From IMG/VR virus record IMGVR_UViG_3300042554_000610, positions 1-22,718 of that record: a stretch of 22,718 bases of DNA. The stretch is one strand, 5' to 3'. The notes beneath the pieces are model-generated. The model was not told the origin of the DNA and did no database searches. It worked only from the letters and a program-made list of their open reading frames with translations. Of this stretch, positions 2,200 through 11,695 are shown in pieces (the stretch's first letter is position 1; every line of letters begins with the position of its first letter). The translations under genes and the position numbers were made by a program. This DNA is from a virus.

Positions 2200-3270
2200 C
2201 TACTTTTTAGCAGCGAAACCACCAAAGTGAGCAGCACCAAAACCGCCTCGCTGTACCAACTTGACCAATCCGGCACGACTTGGTATTACAAAACCTTCGC
2301 CTTGCGGTTGTCCTGAGACATACTGCTGCATGCCTTGAACCTGTGATTCTAGCTGTTGAGCAAGGTTTTCCTTGAGTGCACTAATCGCATTCCAAATCTT
2401 AAACACAGCATCAAGTCCACGACGATTTGTCACCAAATACCCATCACCTTCACCAACCAGAAACTTGTACTGTTTGGCACTGACGTTAGAGCGTAGCCAA
2501 TCGGCTAAAGGTAAATTAGTTCTTTGTGTTTTAAATTGTCCCAGATACTTTTTCAATGCATCTCGGACTACATTTGGTGTGCCAGCTAGAAACTGATCTG
2601 CCAATGGTCCTAGTTTACTCACTGCCACCGTGGCTGCTTGTACCAACTGCACAGGATTTTTCAAAGCAAATTTCAAACCCATGTTAGGAGGTATCACAGT
2701 TACTTGTGCATTTGGTGTAAGCCCACGCCCATCCCAAGGCGCACCCTCGTATTGATGTACCACAATCAGTGCTCGACGCCCGGCAATTAACTTGCCTAGG
2801 TCGCTGTTGACTGGTACATGGTACTCTACTGTGACTGGTTTAAACACAAATTCATTGTTAACAGGTTGTAGTGGTCCTACAAACATGAGATCGCCCTTAA
2901 ACACGCCAGGTGTGGTACCTACCGCAGCCTCGAGACCAGGCCAGATTAGGTTAATTTTTCTGTATAAGTCTGCACGATTGGCTCCACGATCTTGGTCGTA
3001 TTTGATCCAGTCGGCTGGAGTTTTAGGATAGAAATTCTTAGCTGGCATATACTTGTCAGAGATGAAAAACTCTCCGCGCTGATCTCGGCCAAAATACAGT
3101 GCGATTTCGCCATCCCATTTAATAGTAGCAGATCCTGGATTGCCGACGATTTCCCTTAGTGCTTCTACATATCGGGCAGCACTGGCACTGCTGTCAAATA
3201 TGCTGTCTTCTGGGTGAGGGATTCTAGGTCCCTCAGCAGCTTCTACCAGGTAATCGGTATAGGTTTTCAT
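2200..3270 (-). CDS. Putative head-packaged KxDG nucleotidyltransferase (RNA/DNA-ligase-like)
   Basis: A 356-aa protein whose N-terminus MKTYTDYLVEAAEG closely resembles the capsid-targeting peptide of T4 internal proteins (MKTYQEFIAEA). It contains a prohead-protease type site LVE|A at residues 8-11. The body has the signature of covalent nucleotidyltransferases: motif I K51-W-D53-G54 (TIKWDGEIALYF), a motif III-like FKGDLMF around 124-130 with Asp in place of the usual Glu, a motif IV-like EGFVI at 325-329 and a possible motif V lysine near 337. From memory it belongs to a family of unknown function common in T4-like marine phages (KWDGAPA-type proteins). The ATG overlaps the upstream nucleotidyltransferase gene (ATGA), and the operon has a perfect late promoter. 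A packaged nucleic-acid ligase-like enzyme fits best; the substrate is unknown. Confidence 0.7.
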   Translation of the reverse strand: MKTYTDYLVEAAEGPRIPHPEDSIFDSSASAARYVEALREIVGNPGSATIKWDGEIALYFGRDQRGEFFISDKYMPAKNFYPKTPADWIKYDQDRGANRADLYRKINLIWPGLEAAVGTTPGVFKGDLMFVGPLQPVNNEFVFKPVTVEYHVPVNSDLGKLIAGRRALIVVHQYEGAPWDGRGLTPNAQVTVIPPNMGLKFALKNPVQLVQAATVAVSKLGPLADQFLAGTPNVVRDALKKYLGQFKTQRTNLPLADWLRSNVSAKQYKFLVGEGDGYLVTNRRGLDAVFKIWNAISALKENLAQQLESQVQGMQQYVSGQPQGEGFVIPSRAGLVKLVQRGGFGAAHFGGFAAKK

Positions 3271-4052
3271 GCTAATCGATCACTGATTTGTCTAAACCAA
3301 GCGGCTGTGCCTGGTTGTGCTGTTTCTGGTAAACGCAGTATGCCTTTGGCTACATCCTGACGTGCTTGAGCTAGTTTGCCTTCGCGATCTGGGTCTGTGG
3401 CCAAGGCCGACATTATGCTTTTAACCGAATCTAAATCTTTTTCCTTGGCTTTGGGGTTTAACAATATTTTGGCCACTTCTTTTCTAGTTCTACCAACTAC
3501 TTCATTAGTATCACGTGTTAGCAACTTGGCACCAAACGCATCAAACTTTAAATTTTTAAATTTAGCCAAACTGTTAAGTAGTATGAATACTTCACTGCCA
3601 CGGAATTCGGGGTCACCATAAGCACCACGCGGTCCATGTTGATGCCAAGGCGCTACCACAGCAGCATCAGGAATAACCATGACATCTACTTGTGCTAGCC
3701 CAGGTTCACCAGTGTGAGTTTTATAAGGAATACCTATGTGTACGTTACGTCCACTGACCACACTCTGAATGTTTTGTTTTTCAAAATGTTTGCGTAATAG
3801 TTGTTTAGCATCTTTAACTGGATCTCGACTTTGACCTGTGCTGAAATATTCAACCACAGCATCAGCATCTACCATGAGATCGATATCACCAGACTGTACT
3901 TTATAACCGGCACTGCCGATGTCGGTTTGCAATCCACGAACAAGTTCATTGGGCAATAGATTTTTAGCCTGTGCAACCACAGTGGCCACATCTTGTTTGG
4001 CCACAGGGCGACTGTTAGGGATTGCGTTTCCGCCTTCTTGAAGGGTAATCAT
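3267..4052 (-). CDS. Putative head-packaged nucleotidyltransferase-fold protein
   Basis: A 261-aa protein with the Pol-beta-type nucleotidyltransferase signature. It has G46-S47 followed by SGDIDLMVD, giving metal-binding Asp56 and Asp58, and a third Asp at 123 (QVDVMVIPD). The fold family includes tRNA nucleotidyltransferases, poly(A) polymerases and toxin/antitoxin NTases, which transfer NMPs to RNA or protein hydroxyls. The N-terminus MITLQEGG carries a possible gp21-type cleavage site LQE|G at residues 4-7, like its two operon neighbours. ATGA overlaps join it to the genes on both sides. The later part (GRTRKEVAKILLNPKAKEKD) is helical. A packaged NTase acting with the ligase-like neighbour is inferred. 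The target (tRNA end, other RNA or protein) cannot be read from the sequence. Confidence 0.7.
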   Translation of the reverse strand: MITLQEGGNAIPNSRPVAKQDVATVVAQAKNLLPNELVRGLQTDIGSAGYKVQSGDIDLMVDADAVVEYFSTGQSRDPVKDAKQLLRKHFEKQNIQSVVSGRNVHIGIPYKTHTGEPGLAQVDVMVIPDAAVVAPWHQHGPRGAYGDPEFRGSEVFILLNSLAKFKNLKFDAFGAKLLTRDTNEVVGRTRKEVAKILLNPKAKEKDLDSVKSIMSALATDPDREGKLAQARQDVAKGILRLPETAQPGTAAWFRQISDRLA

Positions 4053-4900
4053 CTAGTTTTTATTCCAACTGCATTTAAAAAGGCATCAATTTGTTGAACC
4101 CCTGTGCTACGAACTGTACTTTTTGTTTGTTGCACATACGGTAGTAAATACTGAGACAACCCTTTAATTTGACCTTGTGACAATAATTGTCTAAGATCTG
4201 TTTTAACTTGATTGACTACCTGCGAATCAACTCTTGCACTGGTCCCAGGAACAGCAGCAGCCTGTGGTGTTGCTGGGGGATTAGCGCCTGCTTGACTTGT
4301 AGGTTGTGCTGCCCTATGTACTACCCCGGTTGGAGTAGTTGTCATTGTGCCTCCGGTGCTAGTAGTCGATGTTTTAGGTTGATTGGTCGATGGCGTTGTT
4401 AATTGTTGTGTCATTTGTCCTAACGCTGCTGAACCAGGATTTTGTGGTGTATCATCCTGCGGTATCGTAGGTTCGATGGGTCCTCTTATGCCTGTTCCAT
4501 CAATGGTTTCGGGGCCTTGACCTGCACGAGCACGCCAATATTCCGCACTGCGATCCTGCAGATATTTGTACATCGAAGCATAATCTTTGGCATTTTGCAA
4601 TTGTGGTGGTGGAACTTGGCTAACCCCAGGAACTTTGTCTTTAAATTTTTGGTCACTCCAAGTCACTAATTGCTGTTTAATTTGGTCTGGAGTGGCACTT
4701 GGATTTATAGTACTTAAGACTCCAGTCCAATCATCGTAGGCATCTTTGGCAACAGCCTTTACATCTTTGGCAAATTTGCTTGCTGCCTGTGCCGCTGTTA
4801 CACCTTTAACTGCACCAGTGAGTCCACCAGTCTTTAATCCTTGCCAAGCACCTTTAATATTGTCCAACGGACCTTCAGTGATAACTTCATTGGTTTTCAT
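4049..4900 (-). CDS. Putative internal head protein with Pro/Thr/Gln-rich linker
   Basis: A 283-aa protein with no recognisable enzyme domain. It opens MKTNEVITEGPLDN, with a prohead-protease type site ITE|G at residues 7-10. Residues 10-60 are Gly/Ala/Lys-rich (GLKTGGLTGAVKGVTAAQAA) and then amphipathic. Residues about 130-225 are a low-complexity Pro/Thr/Ser/Gln linker, and the last 60 residues are helical (QVKTDLRQLLSQGQIKGLSQ). The start overlaps the upstream gene by 14 nt and the stop couples by ATGA to the NTase gene. Position in a late operon with two proteins carrying similar leader peptides suggests it is packaged in the head and possibly injected. A structural or carrier role is a guess. 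Confidence 0.65.
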   Translation of the reverse strand: MKTNEVITEGPLDNIKGAWQGLKTGGLTGAVKGVTAAQAASKFAKDVKAVAKDAYDDWTGVLSTINPSATPDQIKQQLVTWSDQKFKDKVPGVSQVPPPQLQNAKDYASMYKYLQDRSAEYWRARAGQGPETIDGTGIRGPIEPTIPQDDTPQNPGSAALGQMTQQLTTPSTNQPKTSTTSTGGTMTTTPTGVVHRAAQPTSQAGANPPATPQAAAVPGTSARVDSQVVNQVKTDLRQLLSQGQIKGLSQYLLPYVQQTKSTVRSTGVQQIDAFLNAVGIKTR

Positions 4901-5138
4901 CTTTTATGCGCCTTATGCCACGTGCGAATTTAGTTGAGTCGCCGCTGCGTATACTATTAATTAATCTACGCTCAAGCTCACCAGCAGTTTCCATATCATA
5001 GTTTTCTTTGATAAACTGCAACAGATGAATAGCACTTTGTATAACATTACTGGCGCGAGATTCCACAAAGTTTTCTTTGTCTCTGCTCAAGCCCATGGTG
5101 TCTAATTCTGTTAGTATGCTTCTGGTACGCCTCTGCAC
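4887..5138 (-). CDS. Conserved phage protein, unknown function (GTG start)
   Basis: An 83-aa basic, all-helical protein. The start is a GTG at 5138 chosen because a GGGGGA Shine-Dalgarno precedes it at good spacing and a perfect late promoter lies just beyond. The sequence begins MQRRTRSILTELDTMGLSRD and contains FVESRASNVIQSAIHLLQFI. From memory, T4-like marine phages carry short proteins with a similar opening (basic stretch, LLTEMD) and ESRA motif. It is the first gene of the late operon that encodes the internal-head-type proteins and overlaps the next gene by 14 nt. LTE occurs near the N-terminus, but the following Leu makes a protease site doubtful. Confidence 0.7.
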   Translation of the reverse strand: MQRRTRSILTELDTMGLSRDKENFVESRASNVIQSAIHLLQFIKENYDMETAGELERRLINSIRSGDSTKFARGIRRIKDENQ

Positions 5139-5157: not shown

Positions 5158-5165
5158 TATTTATA
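5158..5165 (-). promoter_or_regulatory. T4-type late promoter (TATAAATA)
   Basis: A perfect TATAAATA on the minus strand in the short gap after the helicase gene, 19 nt before the GTG start at 5138. It should drive the four-gene operon 5138-2200. In T4 this element is recognised by host RNA polymerase carrying gp55 and the gp45 clamp. Confidence 0.8.
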
Positions 5166-5177
5166 ATGATACCAAAG

Positions 5178-6575
5178 TTATACCTGCTGAGATTTCAACC
5201 CGGACAACATGGTACGCAATTTAGAGGATTCTACTTCTACACCACGCACCGGTGCTGCATCTGTTTTTTCTGCCACAGTGCTGGCACTCTTAATACGATC
5301 CATTACTGCGCTAGCTGTGCTCTTATAACCAGACTCACCAGAATCTGAAATGCCAGGGTCAGTGATACGCATGGTTTCTATGCTGTAGTCTAGATCAATC
5401 TTCATACCTACACCAGTACTGCTACGTGACTTCATGCACTGTATTTGATACTTGCCACGTTCACGCATGGCTCTACTGGTAAAGATACCAAACACATTAT
5501 CTGCTGTGTTAATTTTACTGATACCACCCGAAATATGACTATGATCAAACTCTACTTCTTCAACCGCCGACCGATTCAACTGCGATGCAGTGATCATGAG
5601 CATGCCTAATTCTTTGCTGAGGTTACGCAGTTCTTCTGATACATACTTGTCTTTGACAAATAAATCGTTAGGCGATACTTTAGCCGATACTGGCATTAAC
5701 AAGTCTAGGTAATCAATCATCACAAAGTCTACACGAGTATTGGTTTGAATTTGATATTCTTTCAAATAACTGCGTATGTCATTGATATTACTTTGTGCCG
5801 GCAAATATTTAATACGATAACTACCAGCCCGCTTACTGGCCATTCTGACTTTTAAAGCAGTGTCATCAATGCTTTTGCGAATTTCCTTGGTGCTCATGTC
5901 GTTTAACATGGCATCTGTACGCAAGCTGGTTAGTTCTTCACTGAGTTCCAAGGTAATATACACACCATGCAAGCCTTGCTGTAACCAGTTTAAGGCAATA
6001 TTCATCATAACCAAACTCTTACCAGATCCAGAACCACCAGCAAAGATATTGAGTTCGCCACGACTGAAACCACCATACATGATCTTGTCTAGTTGTGGCC
6101 AACCTGTGCTGACTTGTCCACCGGAATTAAAGTATCTGTTAATACGAGCAGCAGGATCGCCCCAGTAATCTGTGCCTAGGTCTTTGGTCAAACTGATTTG
6201 CACTGCATCCTTGATCATCTTTTCTACAGGATTGAAGTCACCTTTTTCGATCAAGTCTGCGGATTTTAAGATGGCACGCTCTAGCTCTTGTCTACGAGTA
6301 AAGTTTTCAAACTCCTCCATAAACCAGTCTAGGTGACCAGAATTCAATTCAGGAACTCTGTGCAGCTCGACGCCAGTTACTGCACTGATCTGTTCTATGT
6401 TGGGCAGTATACTATGTTTAACAGCATGGTCAATGATAAACTTAGCAGCTTCACGTATGCTGCGATCAAAGTTTTCTGCGTTGTAGATGTTTTGTACACG
6501 CACAAAACTCTGTGCATCCGTAAGCATGATTTCCAGAAACAGTTTCTGAATTTCTAGGTTATATTCTTTTTTCAT
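5178..6575 (-). CDS. 41: Replicative DNA helicase, DnaB family (T4 gp41-like)
   Basis: A 465-aa protein from ATG 6575, one base after the primase stop. The frame extends to a TTG at 6608 inside the primase gene, which I reject. The N-terminal helical domain (residues 1-130) precedes a RecA-like ATPase. Visible motifs are Walker A GGSGSGKS (180-187), YITLELSEE with the catalytic Glu near 210, Walker B FVMIDY (284-289), and a later HISGGISKINTADN segment as in DnaB motif H4. In T4, gp41 forms a hexamer that unwinds the fork 5'-3' and works with primase gp61. The primase is immediately upstream here, so both subunits of the primosome are co-transcribed. Length matches gp41 (about 475 aa). Confidence 0.95.
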   Translation of the reverse strand: MKKEYNLEIQKLFLEIMLTDAQSFVRVQNIYNAENFDRSIREAAKFIIDHAVKHSILPNIEQISAVTGVELHRVPELNSGHLDWFMEEFENFTRRQELERAILKSADLIEKGDFNPVEKMIKDAVQISLTKDLGTDYWGDPAARINRYFNSGGQVSTGWPQLDKIMYGGFSRGELNIFAGGSGSGKSLVMMNIALNWLQQGLHGVYITLELSEELTSLRTDAMLNDMSTKEIRKSIDDTALKVRMASKRAGSYRIKYLPAQSNINDIRSYLKEYQIQTNTRVDFVMIDYLDLLMPVSAKVSPNDLFVKDKYVSEELRNLSKELGMLMITASQLNRSAVEEVEFDHSHISGGISKINTADNVFGIFTSRAMRERGKYQIQCMKSRSSTGVGMKIDLDYSIETMRITDPGISDSGESGYKSTASAVMDRIKSASTVAEKTDAAPVRGVEVESSKLRTMLSGLKSQQV

Positions 6576-6576
6576 A

Positions 6577-7554
6577 CTAACTATATAGCTTTCTGCGTTT
6601 AAGTTCAATTTTAAGACGACTGGTTTCTCGACCTTCTAGAACAGCTTTGAGCACAAACAATTTTCCATAGCGTACTACTGCTTCGTTGATGTCTTTGCAG
6701 GTTTCATGCCACACAGGAAAACTCACTGTCCATGCGTACTCTTGTGCTCGTGTAATTAACTGTGCACCTGCGCGGTCACGGTCTGGTACCAGAATGATTT
6801 CTCTATTCAATGATTCTATTAGGTCTGCTTGTATAGAACTACAGTCATTGCTGAGCACTGCTACACCATCTATGCTCATGGCATCAAAAGGTCCTTCGGT
6901 TACTATGACAAATTGACTGTCGGCAGCTTGTTGATCCAAGTTATACACATAGTTGGCACTGTACTGGCTATAGTATTTGGGTTTGATTGTGGGTTCCCAG
7001 GTTCTGGCTGTGTAGCCAATAACATCATTGTTCCAGGTAAATGGTATGATCACACGTCTATTAAGGTTATGTTCGGTGCGAGCACTGACCAACAGTGGAT
7101 AACGATCCAAGTCGATGGCACGATCCTGGCAGTAAGCCAGTGCAGTTGCATCTGTTTGCACTAGATCAATGTCTGGAGGCAATGCTCTACTTTGAAATTC
7201 AACTTCAACAACTTCGGGTTCCGGTGCAGCAGCGCCTACTAAATCTCTAACACGCACTGATTCAATGGTTAGACGCCGTATTAAATTTTCATCGGCACCT
7301 AACCACGTTAGTAATCTTATGAACCTGTATCCTAGATAGGAACCAGGTCTATAACCAGTTTTATATTGACAGTTGAAACAGTGGTAGGTTACAGATCCGT
7401 CTGGTGCAGTAATTATACCACCACGACTTCGGGTATCAGCAGATTCGCCGCGATGTTGACAGCAAGGAGCATTAAAAGATATCCAGCCACTGGGACTACG
7501 CCGGCGTCGTGCAGGCAGTAATTGTAGGGTGGCATCTTGAACGGCAGTCAACAT
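6577..7554 (-). CDS. 61: DNA primase with zinc-binding and TOPRIM domains (T4 gp61-like)
   Basis: A 325-aa protein. The N-terminal zinc-binding region has C31-C32-x-H34 and later C59-x-x-C62 (HCFNCQYKTGY), as in gp61/DnaG-type primases. The TOPRIM domain shows VIVTEGPFDAMS with the acidic E220-G221 and ILVPDRDRAG with D258-x-D260, the metal-binding residues. The protein synthesises RNA primers for lagging-strand replication with the gp41 helicase encoded one base downstream. Length is close to T4 gp61 (342 aa). The ATG at 7554 lies 7 nt after the -10 box of a sigma70-type promoter and has no Shine-Dalgarno, so the mRNA may be leaderless. The promoter spans an 11-bp inverted repeat, a possible operator. 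Confidence 0.93.
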   Translation of the reverse strand: MLTAVQDATLQLLPARRRRSPSGWISFNAPCCQHRGESADTRSRGGIITAPDGSVTYHCFNCQYKTGYRPGSYLGYRFIRLLTWLGADENLIRRLTIESVRVRDLVGAAAPEPEVVEVEFQSRALPPDIDLVQTDATALAYCQDRAIDLDRYPLLVSARTEHNLNRRVIIPFTWNNDVIGYTARTWEPTIKPKYYSQYSANYVYNLDQQAADSQFVIVTEGPFDAMSIDGVAVLSNDCSSIQADLIESLNREIILVPDRDRAGAQLITRAQEYAWTVSFPVWHETCKDINEAVVRYGKLFVLKAVLEGRETSRLKIELKRRKLYS

Positions 7555-7599: not shown

Positions 7600-8445
7600 C
7601 TACACAGGCGGTCTCATGGCTCCTAATGCTCTGGGCGCACTGGCTGGCGGAGCAGTAGTAGTAGTAGGAGCCACCGCAGGCCATATTTCAAATGAGATGT
7701 TAAGCATGGTATTAGAACTAGCAGCATACCAACCATTATGCCAAACCTGATATGTAGTTTGACTATTATTGTTAGTCAATGCTAATCTAAATCGCGTAGC
7801 ATCATAGGGCAATACCATGATCTGGTTAGTCCAATGTCCAGGCATAGCCATACCACCAGTAGCCGGAATAAAATAAATGGCCATATTTTGCACATCACCA
7901 GTCCATAAGTTATCTGTAAAAACAGGATGATATGTGGTATTAAAAGCCATGCCTGCGGGTAATGTCAGTAAGTATCCGCCGGTGCCTGCTTGCCCACCAG
8001 CAAAACCAAATTTATAAGTTATTCTGGCTTTGTCGCCTATGCGCTGTGTTTCTATACGTTGCACAGTCCTAGTCCCAGTAACTGGTTGATTATGTGTGGA
8101 TCCAAAAATAATAGTATTTTCTACTACAGTATTTGAAATACCAGAGCCAGCTGGTCCAGTGGCACCTGCAGGTCCTTGAACGCCAGCTGGTCCTTGCAAT
8201 CCAGTTGCTCCAGTAGCACCTGGTGCACCATTCTCTCCGGCTGGACCCGGAACACCTTGTGGCCCAGTGTCTCCTTTATCACCCTGTGGCCCTTGAGCCC
8301 CGGGCTCCCCATGGACAGCAGTTACTTGCGGTGTAGGTTGAGCAATAGTGCCTTTCCATTTAGTTCCATCAAATGTATACTTCACACCATTTGGTGTAGT
8401 GTGTGTATCACCGGATTGAGGGTTCAGTGGTAAGTTGTTAATCAT
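7600..8445 (-). CDS. Collagen-like tail fibre / virion surface protein
   Basis: A 281-aa protein from ATG 8445 with a good AGGAAA Shine-Dalgarno. Residues 1-35 form a short domain (NGVKYTFDGTKWKG), typical of phage fibre N-termini. Residues about 46-101 are Gly-X-Y collagen repeats (GEPGAQGPQGDKGDTGPQG and on), which should make a trimeric triple helix. The rest (102-255) is a beta-rich C-terminal domain with aromatic residues (WHNGWYAASS), followed by a Pro/Ala/Thr-rich tail. Such C-terminal domains in phage fibres usually trimerise or bind the host surface. It is the last gene of the fibre cluster, 18 nt after the preceding gene. The receptor is unknown. Confidence 0.8.
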   Translation of the reverse strand: MINNLPLNPQSGDTHTTPNGVKYTFDGTKWKGTIAQPTPQVTAVHGEPGAQGPQGDKGDTGPQGVPGPAGENGAPGATGATGLQGPAGVQGPAGATGPAGSGISNTVVENTIIFGSTHNQPVTGTRTVQRIETQRIGDKARITYKFGFAGGQAGTGGYLLTLPAGMAFNTTYHPVFTDNLWTGDVQNMAIYFIPATGGMAMPGHWTNQIMVLPYDATRFRLALTNNNSQTTYQVWHNGWYAASSNTMLNISFEIWPAVAPTTTTAPPASAPRALGAMRPPV

Positions 8446-9151: not shown

Positions 9152-11695
9152 TTAGAATCCTGACAACTGGCCTAGTACCGTATAGGTCCCAGATGCATTA
9201 AGCACACTAAAAGTTAATGTATCAATTCTGTTAGCATTGGCTGTAGGCAAGGTATTGCCGGCCCAGTTTATGGTTTGTGCTACACCTCCAATCTGTACAG
9301 CATTGGCATAATAAGCAGTGGCACCTTGAACAATAACTAAGGTAATTGCAGTGGCATATCCGCTTGCTAAACTAAGATTGGCAAAGTTAGCTGTCCAATT
9401 AGCACTGGGCGTAGTGTGCCTAAAGATTTGGTTATTGGTACAATCATGTGTAACAACACCAGTGGCATTGGATAAACTAGTAAACGATTCATGAACACCG
9501 CTCATTTTACTAGTGCCGGTGAACGTAGGATTAGCAATAGTAGGGGAAGGTCCTACCGCTGGATTACTATCTACCCAAGCCGAACCAGTCCAAATGTATG
9601 TGTTACCATCATCAGTGTCATAGTAAAGTTGACCAGTTACCGGACTGGAGGGTGGTACGCTTTGAACTGCGGCTGCTGCTCGTGTCCATGCTGTATTTTG
9701 GAAGGTTCCGTCGCTGAATGTTATGCCGGGCCAACTAACAGGTGCCGGACTTACATCCATTGCAGTTGGTGGCAATTGTAAATTACCACCAATATCAAAA
9801 GTCCAAACTTTATTACCACCAGCATAACTCAGCGCAGAAATCTTAACATTGCCACTGTTCATCATGATGTTAAAGGCATCATTGAAGTCAGTGGCATTAG
9901 TGTCGGTACCTTGGATATAGATAAATCCAGAATTACCGCTTGTATGTGGGAACCCCAATGTAACTGCTTTATCTACTTCTGCTGAGGGCATTTCCATGCC
10001 AGATCTAACATAGTTACCGGTAATAGTATCTACTTTGAATAAAAATCTCTTGTCAATGTCTATGTCGGGTCTGAGCTGAATGGCATCACTTATACCGCCA
10101 ATGCTTGATCCGTAGATATTTCTACCAACTTGGATGTTGCCCGATTTCAACAAATTAGTATCGGAACGATAAGTTAAATCAACATCAGCTCTGGGATATT
10201 GAGCGGTAGTTCTGTTTTCGACAAATACCGGATAATAGGTAGTAGTTAAGCCATTGGTATCAACTATGTCGATCCTGTCAGTGGGTCCAGTAGCACCCAC
10301 ATTGCCAGTGATCCCAGTGGCACCTGTTAAACCAGTGGCTCCAATGGTGTATCCAGCATCTACAGAAATACCATCTGATCTTGTTAAGATTAGTCTTCCT
10401 GAACCGTTAATGCTAGCTGAGCTTAAGCCGACTCCGGTAGCTCCAGTAGTTCCTGTGGCTCCTTGTATGCCCTGTGCTCCTGGATTACCAGTAGCTCCAG
10501 TGGCACCACCTGGAGTTCCTGCAGGACCCACTGGTCCTGTTGCGCCCGTTGAACCAGCTCCAGTGGCTCCTGGCAGACCTTGCGGTCCTTGTATACCAGT
10601 GGCACCACGTTCTCCGGTAGCGCCAGTGGCTCCAGTAATGCCCTGCTGCCCTTGAGCACCAGTGGCACCTGTTAATCCTTGTAAACCAGCTGGTCCACTG
10701 GCACCAGTGGCGCCTGGTAATCCCGGTGATCCTTGTATACCAATGGGTCCGGTGCTGCCGGTAGCTCCAACAGGACCGCCTGGTCCTATGTTACCTTGTA
10801 TACCAGTGGCTCCAGTCAAACCGGTTGATCCTGTTAAGCCGGTGGCTCCTGTAGCCCCAATGTCACCAGTGGCACCTACTAGTCCAGAAGCACCTGTAGC
10901 TCCTTCTATACCTTGTGGTCCTACTATACCTTGTGCACCACTGAGGTCTGATACATATTGATAGCTGGTACCATTCCACAAATATAATCTACTGTTTTCA
11001 GGATCAGAAGCATAGTTGCCATTATCAATTATAGCAAACTGTCCTGCTGTGATATTGGCCGGCGATACATCTGCTGTAAGCGTGGCCACATTTACATAGG
11101 TTTTAGCAATACTGAATCCTAATCCAGTGGGTCCTGTAGCTCCAGTATTACCAGTCAAGCCAGTGGCACCTATGACTGTACCTGCATTGATACTGACATT
11201 ATCAGTCCTAGTCAATATCAAGTTACCCAACACAATATTAGCAGTGATGATATCTACACCACTTGCACCTACATTACCAGTGAGTCCGGTGGCTCCTACG
11301 TTACCAGTGAGTCCGGTGGCTCCTATGTTACCTGTTAGTCCGGTGGCACCAGTAGCACCACCAGGTGACCCAGGTAGTCCAGTGGCGCCTATATTTCCTG
11401 TTAGTCCAGTGGCACCAGTGGCACCACCAGGTGATCCAGCTGGACCAATGTTACCAGTGGCTCCAATTGGACCAATGTTACCTTGTAAGCCGGTAGCTCC
11501 AGCTGGCCCGGTAAGACCAGTGGCACCTGCCATGATAAGATTCCCACCGGGCGTAACACCATCATGTATACGCAGTGTACGATAAGTAGTATCTAAGGTG
11601 ATTTCACCTAAGGGACCAGTGTAGTTACTGCTTACCGCAGCATTGCCACGTTTTAACAGATATTGTTTGATCGTTACATTAGATATAGTAGCCAT
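9152..11695 (-). CDS. Large collagen-like tail fibre protein
   Basis: An 847-aa protein. The N-terminus ([20 protein letters not shown], then [17 protein letters not shown]) matches the short N-terminal domain shared by phage tropism-determinant-type fibres (LKRG...GE...L.IGDG pattern). Collagen-like Gly-X-Y segments, mostly GATGxTG, lie at about 57-150, 180-197, 256-430 and 458-475. They are broken by globular inserts, two of which are related ([20 protein letters not shown] and [20 protein letters not shown]). A beta-rich C-terminal region of roughly 370 residues includes [17 protein letters not shown], common in marine phage fibres. The ATG overlaps the upstream stop as TAATG, so the two are coupled. 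It is likely the main long fibre. The repeats make it prone to slippage and recombination. Confidence 0.85.
11271..11351 (-). repeat. 27-bp tandem repeat coding for G-x-y collagen units
   Basis: Three consecutive 27-bp units (11271-11297, 11298-11324, 11325-11351) encode NVGATGLTG / NIGATGLTG-type nonapeptides. The first two differ by one base, the third by several. Similar partial units recur downstream to about 11450. This recent duplication shows the collagen stalk changes length by unit gain or loss. Confidence 0.85.

Follow-up and report, generated by a model that had tools for sequence, protein, structure and literature searches.

Three genes on the minus strand of the virus record IMGVR_UViG_3300042554_000610 (IMG/VR) raise the question of what their products do and where they act. 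The window, i.e., the whole stretch of DNA analysed, is this 22,718-base record, which is probably a fragment; the three genes, here called P3 (4049..4900, 283 amino acids (aa)), P2 (3267..4052, 261 aa) and P1 (2200..3270, 356 aa), are neighbours in it. An earlier note had suggested that all three products are packed into the head, trimmed and injected with the DNA. The stronger finding, which that note had missed, concerns P2 and P1: to judge from their predicted folds, the former is polymerase-like and the latter ligase-like, and the two are often fused with a putative cleavage site kept at the seam. The explanation towards which we lean slightly is a polymerase–ligase pair made late, targeted to the head, trimmed by the prohead protease and delivered with the genome of a T4-superfamily phage; the targeting, the cleavage, the delivery, the enzymatic activity and the preference for DNA over RNA as the substrate are all points that we infer, from sequence, structural models and analogy.

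Leaders, predicted cleavage sites and promoter

Each gene overlaps the next by 4 nucleotides (nt), and in-frame stops lie 1 (P3), 0 (P2) and 3 (P1) codons 5' of the starts, which consequently cannot be located further upstream; the three coupled reading frames of the earlier note, with their N-termini, were thus found as described. Each N-terminus holds [LI]xE with a small residue next to it, in agreement with the rule by which the gp21-type prohead protease cleaves. According to this rule, the removable leaders would be MKTNEVITE in P3 (4874..4900, cut before GPLD), MITLQE in P2 (4035..4052, cut before GG) and MKTYTDYLVE in P1 (3241..3270, cut before AA), all on the minus strand. The likeness of the P1 leader to that of the T4 internal proteins, pointed out in the note, is borne out by IPII and IPIII, which in the T4 record begin with MKTYQEFIAE|A (P1: MKTYTDYLVE|A); a targeting sequence of about 10 residues common to exactly these two proteins has been described (PMC9958956). 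The extension of this likeness to all three proteins is not supported: P3 bears a related nine-residue leader, and that of the P2 family, mostly 5–9 residues long (six in the window), has little T4 likeness beyond the cleavage rule and is, by resemblance, too short to count as a targeting sequence. In the AlphaFold2 models, P2 residues 1–7 and P1 residues 4–14 have a predicted local distance difference test (pLDDT) score below 50, and the leader stretches of both proteins are probably disordered.

The expression ^M.{2,14}[LI]xE[AGS] retrieved 3 of the 31 called genes of the window, exactly P3, P2 and P1, with 0.51 expected from shuffling. This count is no more than suggestive; as sole proof, such single-window statistics were set aside as too weak. 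In other stretches of the relatives the bare motif is 2- to 4-fold more frequent than in shuffles (6/92 vs. 2.1, 4/48 vs. 1.1, 4/91 vs. 1.8 and 7/152 vs. 3.1), and it also falls on genes with no reason for head targeting.

For the comparison among relatives, the best 80 loci of the helicase scan were kept, L001, L002 and L027 were omitted as copies of the window or of L003, and only distinct sequences were counted. These are related proteins, not independent ones; some frames are ended by contig edges, and several starts were miscalled by the crude gene caller (e.g., L070, L052 and about eight third-family rows beginning inside the domain). The site [LI]xEGG is present in 57 of 59 distinct P2-family frames; in an alignment of 32 members, x and the residues preceding the site vary, and E, G and G (E6, G7 and G8 of the window protein) are constant in all of them. 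In the P1 family, [LI]xE appears ahead of the domain, within 45 residues of it, in all 51 distinct frames, and 46 have the strict form [LI]xE[AGS], both where P1 is a separate frame (23/25) and where it is fused (23/26); random 45-aa stretches of the same proteins contain the strict site in 3.4% of cases. P3 is weaker: of its eight distinct N-termini, five have the strict motif and all eight a loose [LIV]xE (counting matches from residue 1 with E <=1e-5, which excluded L008, L012 and L021). The sites that the earlier note had seen in the three proteins are thus retained in most P2- and P1-family frames, and this conservation is, at the sequence level, far beyond chance.

The fate of these sites in fused and in leaderless proteins is more telling. 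P3 and P2 form a single frame in L022–L025 and L050, and probably in L052, whose called start is doubtful; the fusions of L022–L025 retain IKEGG or LKEGG internally. P2 and P1 are one open reading frame (ORF) of 621–673 aa in 13 of the 16 larger records, and each of the 26 distinct P2–P1 fusions keeps [LI]xE within 45 residues N-terminal to the P1 domain, with A or G next in 23 of them. By this comparison the site is retained where a role as an N-terminal tag is no longer possible. Conversely, the two P2 homologues out of 59 without EGG, both from jumbo phages, begin right at the predicted cut (MSGNAF in PA5oct and MGGAAF in Phosso), with no in-frame start codon upstream. The homologue of phage Atu_ph07, missed by the search expression [LI]xEGG, also starts there (MGGRAF); the short open stretch upstream of it has two TTG codons but no [LI]xE. 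The Glu before GG is therefore invariant where a leader is present and gone where the protein begins at GG, which implies that the fold does not need it. Sites retained at fusion junctions, together with starts at the cut point, are the strongest reason that the sequences offer to see a protease site here.

As for expression, the operon lies downstream of the replicative helicase gene (5178-6608, minus strand), and its first gene is not one of the three: it is an 83-aa gene with a GTG start (4887..5138, minus strand) that matches PHROG 11854, 'virion structural protein' (E 2e-15), and is followed by P3, P2 and P1. The late-promoter-like octamer TATAAATA (5158..5165, minus strand) begins 27 nt ahead of this gene. 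Hence, of the perfect late promoter that the note had assigned to the operon, the octamer itself stands, preceding a fourth gene and not the three directly. As evidence on its own the octamer was rejected, being within chance (three occurrences in the window vs. 0.97 expected, and at least three in 6 of 100 shuffles). Its core TAAATA, however, is found at the same place in all 19 distinct regions upstream of the 83-aa gene (19 from 28 rows, counting distinct upstream regions only) and in 0.7% of background windows; the complete octamer is present in 6 of the 19. A core at a fixed position suggests late expression of the operon. In several relative loci P3-like starts adjoin P2, and elsewhere P2 directly follows the 83-aa gene.

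Predicted folds and the polymerase–ligase pairing

P2 models as a minimal (palm and thumb) family-X-type DNA polymerase-like enzyme. Its AlphaFold2 model (mean pLDDT 83.5) was compared with the PDB by Foldseek, where the best match was pol lambda (E 1.2e-6, probability 1.00) and the best 50 of 1108 matches were all pol lambda; the 50 matches listed by VIA were all family-X polymerases (best Z 8.8); one of them was AsfvPolX, aligned over 159 of 176 residues. The pol-beta palm pattern GS...DxD...D is present both in the predicted fold and among the invariant residues: G46, S47, S54, G55, D56, D58 and D123 are identical in 32 of 32 aligned members. The first two active-site Asp residues would be those of the segment GS...SGDID (codons G46–D58, 3879..3917, minus strand), and the third D123 (3684-3686, minus strand).

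Sequence searches did not lead to the same family. The window P2 has no significant match in Pfam or PHROG; the 32 aligned members gave no family-X Pfam match, only scattered single Pfam or PHROG hits, and one fused member has a marginal DNA_pol_B_thumb match (E 0.22). A direct link to solved family-X structures was also sought and discarded, with no family-X match up to E 10. Likewise, the assignment of P2 to RlaP was dropped: across 13 records none of the P2 relatives was matched by the RlaP model PF10127, which did match 4 of 14 control genomes and a separate Atu_ph07 site away from the P2 homologue. Scans of viral contigs retrieved relatives of P2 at 24 loci and of P1 at 6, and confirmed none for P3; a scan of genomic contigs with the P2 alignment retrieved nothing. 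Among named phages, the window P2 as a query found nothing, a P2 of the fused clade found 14 records, all of them jumbo phages, and P3 had no relative; P3, with its Pro/Thr/Gln-rich tail, matches no known family.

P1 belongs to the Pfam family PF19782, DUF6267 (E 7e-25, 88.6 bits vs. a curated cut-off of 27), a domain that matched 373 phage records in one search; none of the papers searched mentions 'DUF6267'. Less securely than for P2, the model (mean pLDDT 88.7) points to a polynucleotide ligase-like protein with a covalent nucleotidyltransferase fold. The 50 matches listed by VIA were RNA or DNA ligases or complexes holding a ligase, with RNA ligases (best Z 7.5) and DNA ligases (6.8) tied at the top. 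Moreover, the ligase pattern KxDG (motif I), EGxV (motif IV) and a later Lys (motif V) occurs in 29 of 29 aligned members: candidate motif I, with the putative adenosine monophosphate-accepting Lys, is KWDG (codons K51–G54, 3109..3120; K51, D53 and G54 invariant), candidate motif IV is EGFV (codons E325–V328, 2287..2298; E325, G326 and V328 invariant), and candidate motif V is the invariant K337 (2260-2262), all on the minus strand. In BFVD, P1 matched, apart from DUF6267 relatives, a 446-aa PA5oct protein (E 3e-5) and a 324-aa Atu_ph07 'RNA ligase' (E 8e-4), which phage and length identify as the genes near the P2 homologues. An ordinary ATP-dependent DNA ligase is present in all six large relatives tested and in PA5oct; P1 was thus rejected as the sole DNA ligase of those six, and it probably has a special role. 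The RNA_ligase matches of G024, G031 and G025 were not taken as extra RNA ligases, as they overlap the DNA ligase hits.

Two observations concern other bearers of DUF6267. Neither DNA ligase family was matched in S-PM2, Melnitz and P-HM1 (L155, L159 and L161), and DUF6267 might be their ligase. In the cyanophages L155, L156, L157, L160, L161 and L163, a cytidyltransferase-like gene follows DUF6267, apparently fused to it in S-PM2; by sequence, these neighbours may be another link of DUF6267 to nucleotidyl transfer.

This phage is nearer to PA5oct-like jumbo phages than to the marine T4-like ones, the Pseudomonas phage PA5oct being the nearest named relative by helicase (49% identical). In PA5oct the helicase is directly followed by an 83-aa-type gene (EST35_0225), which matches PHROG 11854 as that of the window does, then by more genes and the P2 homologue. 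A protein with the KxDG, EG and Lys pattern adjoins the P2 homologue in Phosso and Atu_ph07 (directly upstream in the latter) and lies three genes upstream of it in PA5oct; in all three phages this neighbour has EKxDG, EGxV and a later Lys. The occurrence of polymerase-like and ligase-like neighbours in two separate arrangements supports, from the sequence side, a shared job.

Virion evidence and rival explanations

Packaging of the three proteins appears likely on sequence grounds. Each of the nine named phages tested has a member of the gp21 family (PF03420): T4, which served as the positive control, PA5oct, Phosso, Atu_ph07, Melnitz and four cyanophages. At the T4 cut column, the gp23 proteins of five cyanophages and methylophages have LTE, LAE, LSE, INE and LNE. 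The P2 homologue of PA5oct, EST35_0231, is annotated 'structural protein, ESI-MS/MS' (electrospray ionisation tandem mass spectrometry), as are 12 of the 18 genes of that stretch; among them, EST35_0227 has an internal INEGPLD, like the start of P3. The 83-aa-type EST35_0225 has no mass spectrometry (MS) note. In the available part of the MIJ3 phage paper only four proteins, from major bands, were identified by MS, which speaks neither for nor against packaging.

If these pieces belong together, the operon would be transcribed late as a set of head-directed proteins, of which P1 and P3, and probably P2, would carry short N-terminal propeptides ending in the gp21-type cleavage rule. The proteins would enter the scaffold core, where the prohead protease would cut after [LI]xE; in the P3–P2 and P2–P1 fusions, a cut at the junction would free separate enzymes from one precursor. 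The mature enzymes would stay with the DNA and be delivered with the genome, and P2 could then fill, and P1 seal, gaps or broken ends at once, at a time when no phage gene is yet expressed. The early steps draw on sequence conservation and on T4 knowledge (PMC5694885, PMC3012670), the repair steps on fold and motifs. A more specific form, possible though doubtful in our view, is a polyprotein system in which the protease cuts both termini and fusion junctions and so frees polymerase and ligase inside the head; once injected, these would repair ends in the first minute, as a defence against damage or host nucleases.

Several observations weigh against this picture. Of nine DUF6267 proteins inspected (eight from cyanophages and one from a methylophage), seven start at the domain, without a leader; of the other two, Melnitz has one (ITE|D), and the annotated start of S-WAM2 is internal and cannot be scored. 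The comparison of homologue N-termini proposed in the earlier note thus came out divided, with sites kept in close relatives and leaders mostly missing in named phages, so the leader would be a module gained or lost and not a family trait. In five of the 51 P1-family frames the residue next to [LI]xE is E, D or N, and T4 leaders, at 10–20 residues (PMC5694885), exceed that of P2 in length. The only P2 homologue with an MS annotation, EST35_0231, has no leader, so none is needed there, which weakens the claim that one is required; the ligase-like PA5oct protein EST35_0228 bears no MS note. The gp21 family was missing from all 17 fragments searched, among them the window, and from 15 of the 16 larger metagenomic records; the one that has it also has gp23. 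The 215-kb record G025 shows neither, and G030 begins just before gp23, so that its gp21 may lie beyond the record end. The gp23 proteins of the nearest clade, G030, G031 and PA5oct (the last 66% identical to that of G031), have a gap at the T4 cut column; cut candidates were recognised by eye in YLKE|NASAG (G031), YLKE|NATAG (G030) and FLVE|NASAG (PA5oct), and no gp23 turned up in the stretches of Phosso and Atu_ph07 that were analysed. As for the ligase assignment, VIA itself rates a Z of 7.5 as middling, the best PDB match by Foldseek is a capping enzyme at E 0.65, and the BFVD matches superpose poorly (template modelling score 0.36 for PA5oct and 0.23 for Atu_ph07). A sequence link between P1 and ligases was tried and failed; hhalign with the jumbo-phage ligases aligned KxDG at a probability of 1.5% and E 0.035.

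The substrate divides the readings, since the family X fold of P2 would favour DNA, and the RNA-ligase likeness of P1, together with pairs of RlaP and RNA ligase, would favour RNA. In the latter case the genome would be accompanied by an RNA repair system, with P2 restoring nucleotides and P1 acting as an RNA ligase that mends tRNAs cut by host anticodon nucleases; a scheme of this kind has been put forward for RlaP and RNA ligase in jumbo phages, where the enzymes are made after infection. Pol-beta-type nucleotidyltransferases with RNA ligases have been described in jumbo phages (PMC7824862), RNA ligases top the structural matches of P1 (though tied with DNA ligases), and the large relatives already own a DNA ligase; the Atu_ph07 neighbour, 'hypothetical' in its own record, is named RNA ligase in BFVD and reaches Pfam RNA_ligase at E 0.002, below the cut-off. 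We nevertheless regard RNA repair as rather doubtful: PF10127 misses the P2 relatives, the RlaP of Atu_ph07 sits elsewhere, and the listed structural matches of P2 are all family-X DNA polymerases, a comparison that is not decisive, as no RlaP structure was listed. A role of P2 and P1 as packaged effectors, acting not in repair but on host proteins or RNA by nucleotidylation or capping-like transfer, seems very unlikely. Pol-beta-type nucleotidyltransferases do occur among the polyvalent-protein domains thought to be injected, and T4 packages and injects the host-modifying enzyme Alt (PMC5512222); on the other hand, the recurrence in PA5oct, Phosso and Atu_ph07 of a polymerase-like protein paired with a strongly diverged ligase-like one suggests that the two act together on nucleic acid ends.

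The [LI]xE segments could also be ordinary conserved N-termini of late cytoplasmic enzymes that are neither packaged nor cut, as the leaderless DUF6267 proteins of most named phages inspected and the mild enrichment of the bare motif elsewhere would allow. The loss of Glu exactly where the protein starts at GG, the low-confidence, probably disordered leaders, the MS annotation in PA5oct and the late-promoter core speak against this, and we consider it unlikely. Returning to the packed, trimmed and injected trio of the earlier note, the sites, the promoter position, gp21 in the named phages and the PA5oct annotation are in its favour, and a T4-like leader on all three is the part left unsupported.

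Some neighbouring genes deserve mention. The 91-aa gene behind P1 (1867-2142, minus strand; MAVFARVNG...) resembles, by eye, PA5oct EST35_0233/0234, annotated as structural by ESI-MS/MS, and Phosso 450, in similar places; its product is perhaps another virion protein. In L172 (9863-10906) an extra leader-bearing protein (MKIRDIILEGGWDTTLTQGT...) lies between P2 and P1; the called ORF that contains it is slightly longer, and neither Pfam nor PHROG gave a significant family. Four tandem genes of Atu_ph07 (L179, 7676-10426) start with MRW(H/D)QL(I/T/N)E and have a YRG motif in common; by eye they look like leader-bearing effectors of the ADP-ribosyltransferase type, and the single one scanned had no Pfam match. 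Finally, an 847-aa protein of the window with long collagen-like Gly-x-y repeats (9152-11695, minus strand) is a probable tail fibre, and a second such protein lies at 7600-8445.

Known systems and biological meaning

Among known systems, T4 IPII and IPIII share with the operon the P1 leader likeness, the late-promoter core and [LI]xE with a small residue, whereas the mature parts are unrelated in length and family, the P2 leader lacks the targeting part, and sites also lie inside fusions. The PA5oct island of EST35_0231 has the P2 homologue in the same order behind helicase and 83-aa-type gene, and the structural annotation; it differs in its leaderless P2 homologue and in the strongly diverged ligase-like partner without an MS note. 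The cyanophage DUF6267 proteins (PHROG 455) are homologous to P1 and also lie behind gp41, but those inspected are mostly leaderless and no P2 partner was found in the named cyanophages searched. We know of no head-protease site in PgVPolX of Phaeocystis globosa virus. In this protein, whose repair activity has been demonstrated biochemically, polymerase X is likewise fused to a ligase; the ligase domain is nicotinamide adenine dinucleotide (NAD+)-dependent, there is a 5'-deoxyribose phosphate (dRP) lyase activity, and the virus is a eukaryotic giant virus (PMC5537341). Pairs of RlaP and RNA ligase are alike in joining a Pol-beta-type nucleotidyltransferase to a ligase in jumbo phages, but PF10127 misses the P2 relatives, and no packaging is described for RlaP in the available text (PMC7824862). 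Among the literature matches listed, judged by title and the start of the abstract, there was no phage polymerase X with a packaged ligase.

The T4 protein IPI acts against a host nuclease through inhibition (PMC3012670). If the preferred explanation is true, a packaged polymerase and ligase would, unlike that inhibitor, repair, and would do so ahead of any transcription. This, in turn, would give DUF6267 a biochemical class and would name a nucleotidyltransferase family whose window member, P2, has no significant match in Pfam or PHROG. The idea is partly testable, as a laboratory host is available for the PA5oct group, Pseudomonas aeruginosa PAO1 being the listed host for 5 of the group's 11 matching records. 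Moreover, [LI]xE sites that survive fusion would be a sequence rule for finding further packaged proteins.

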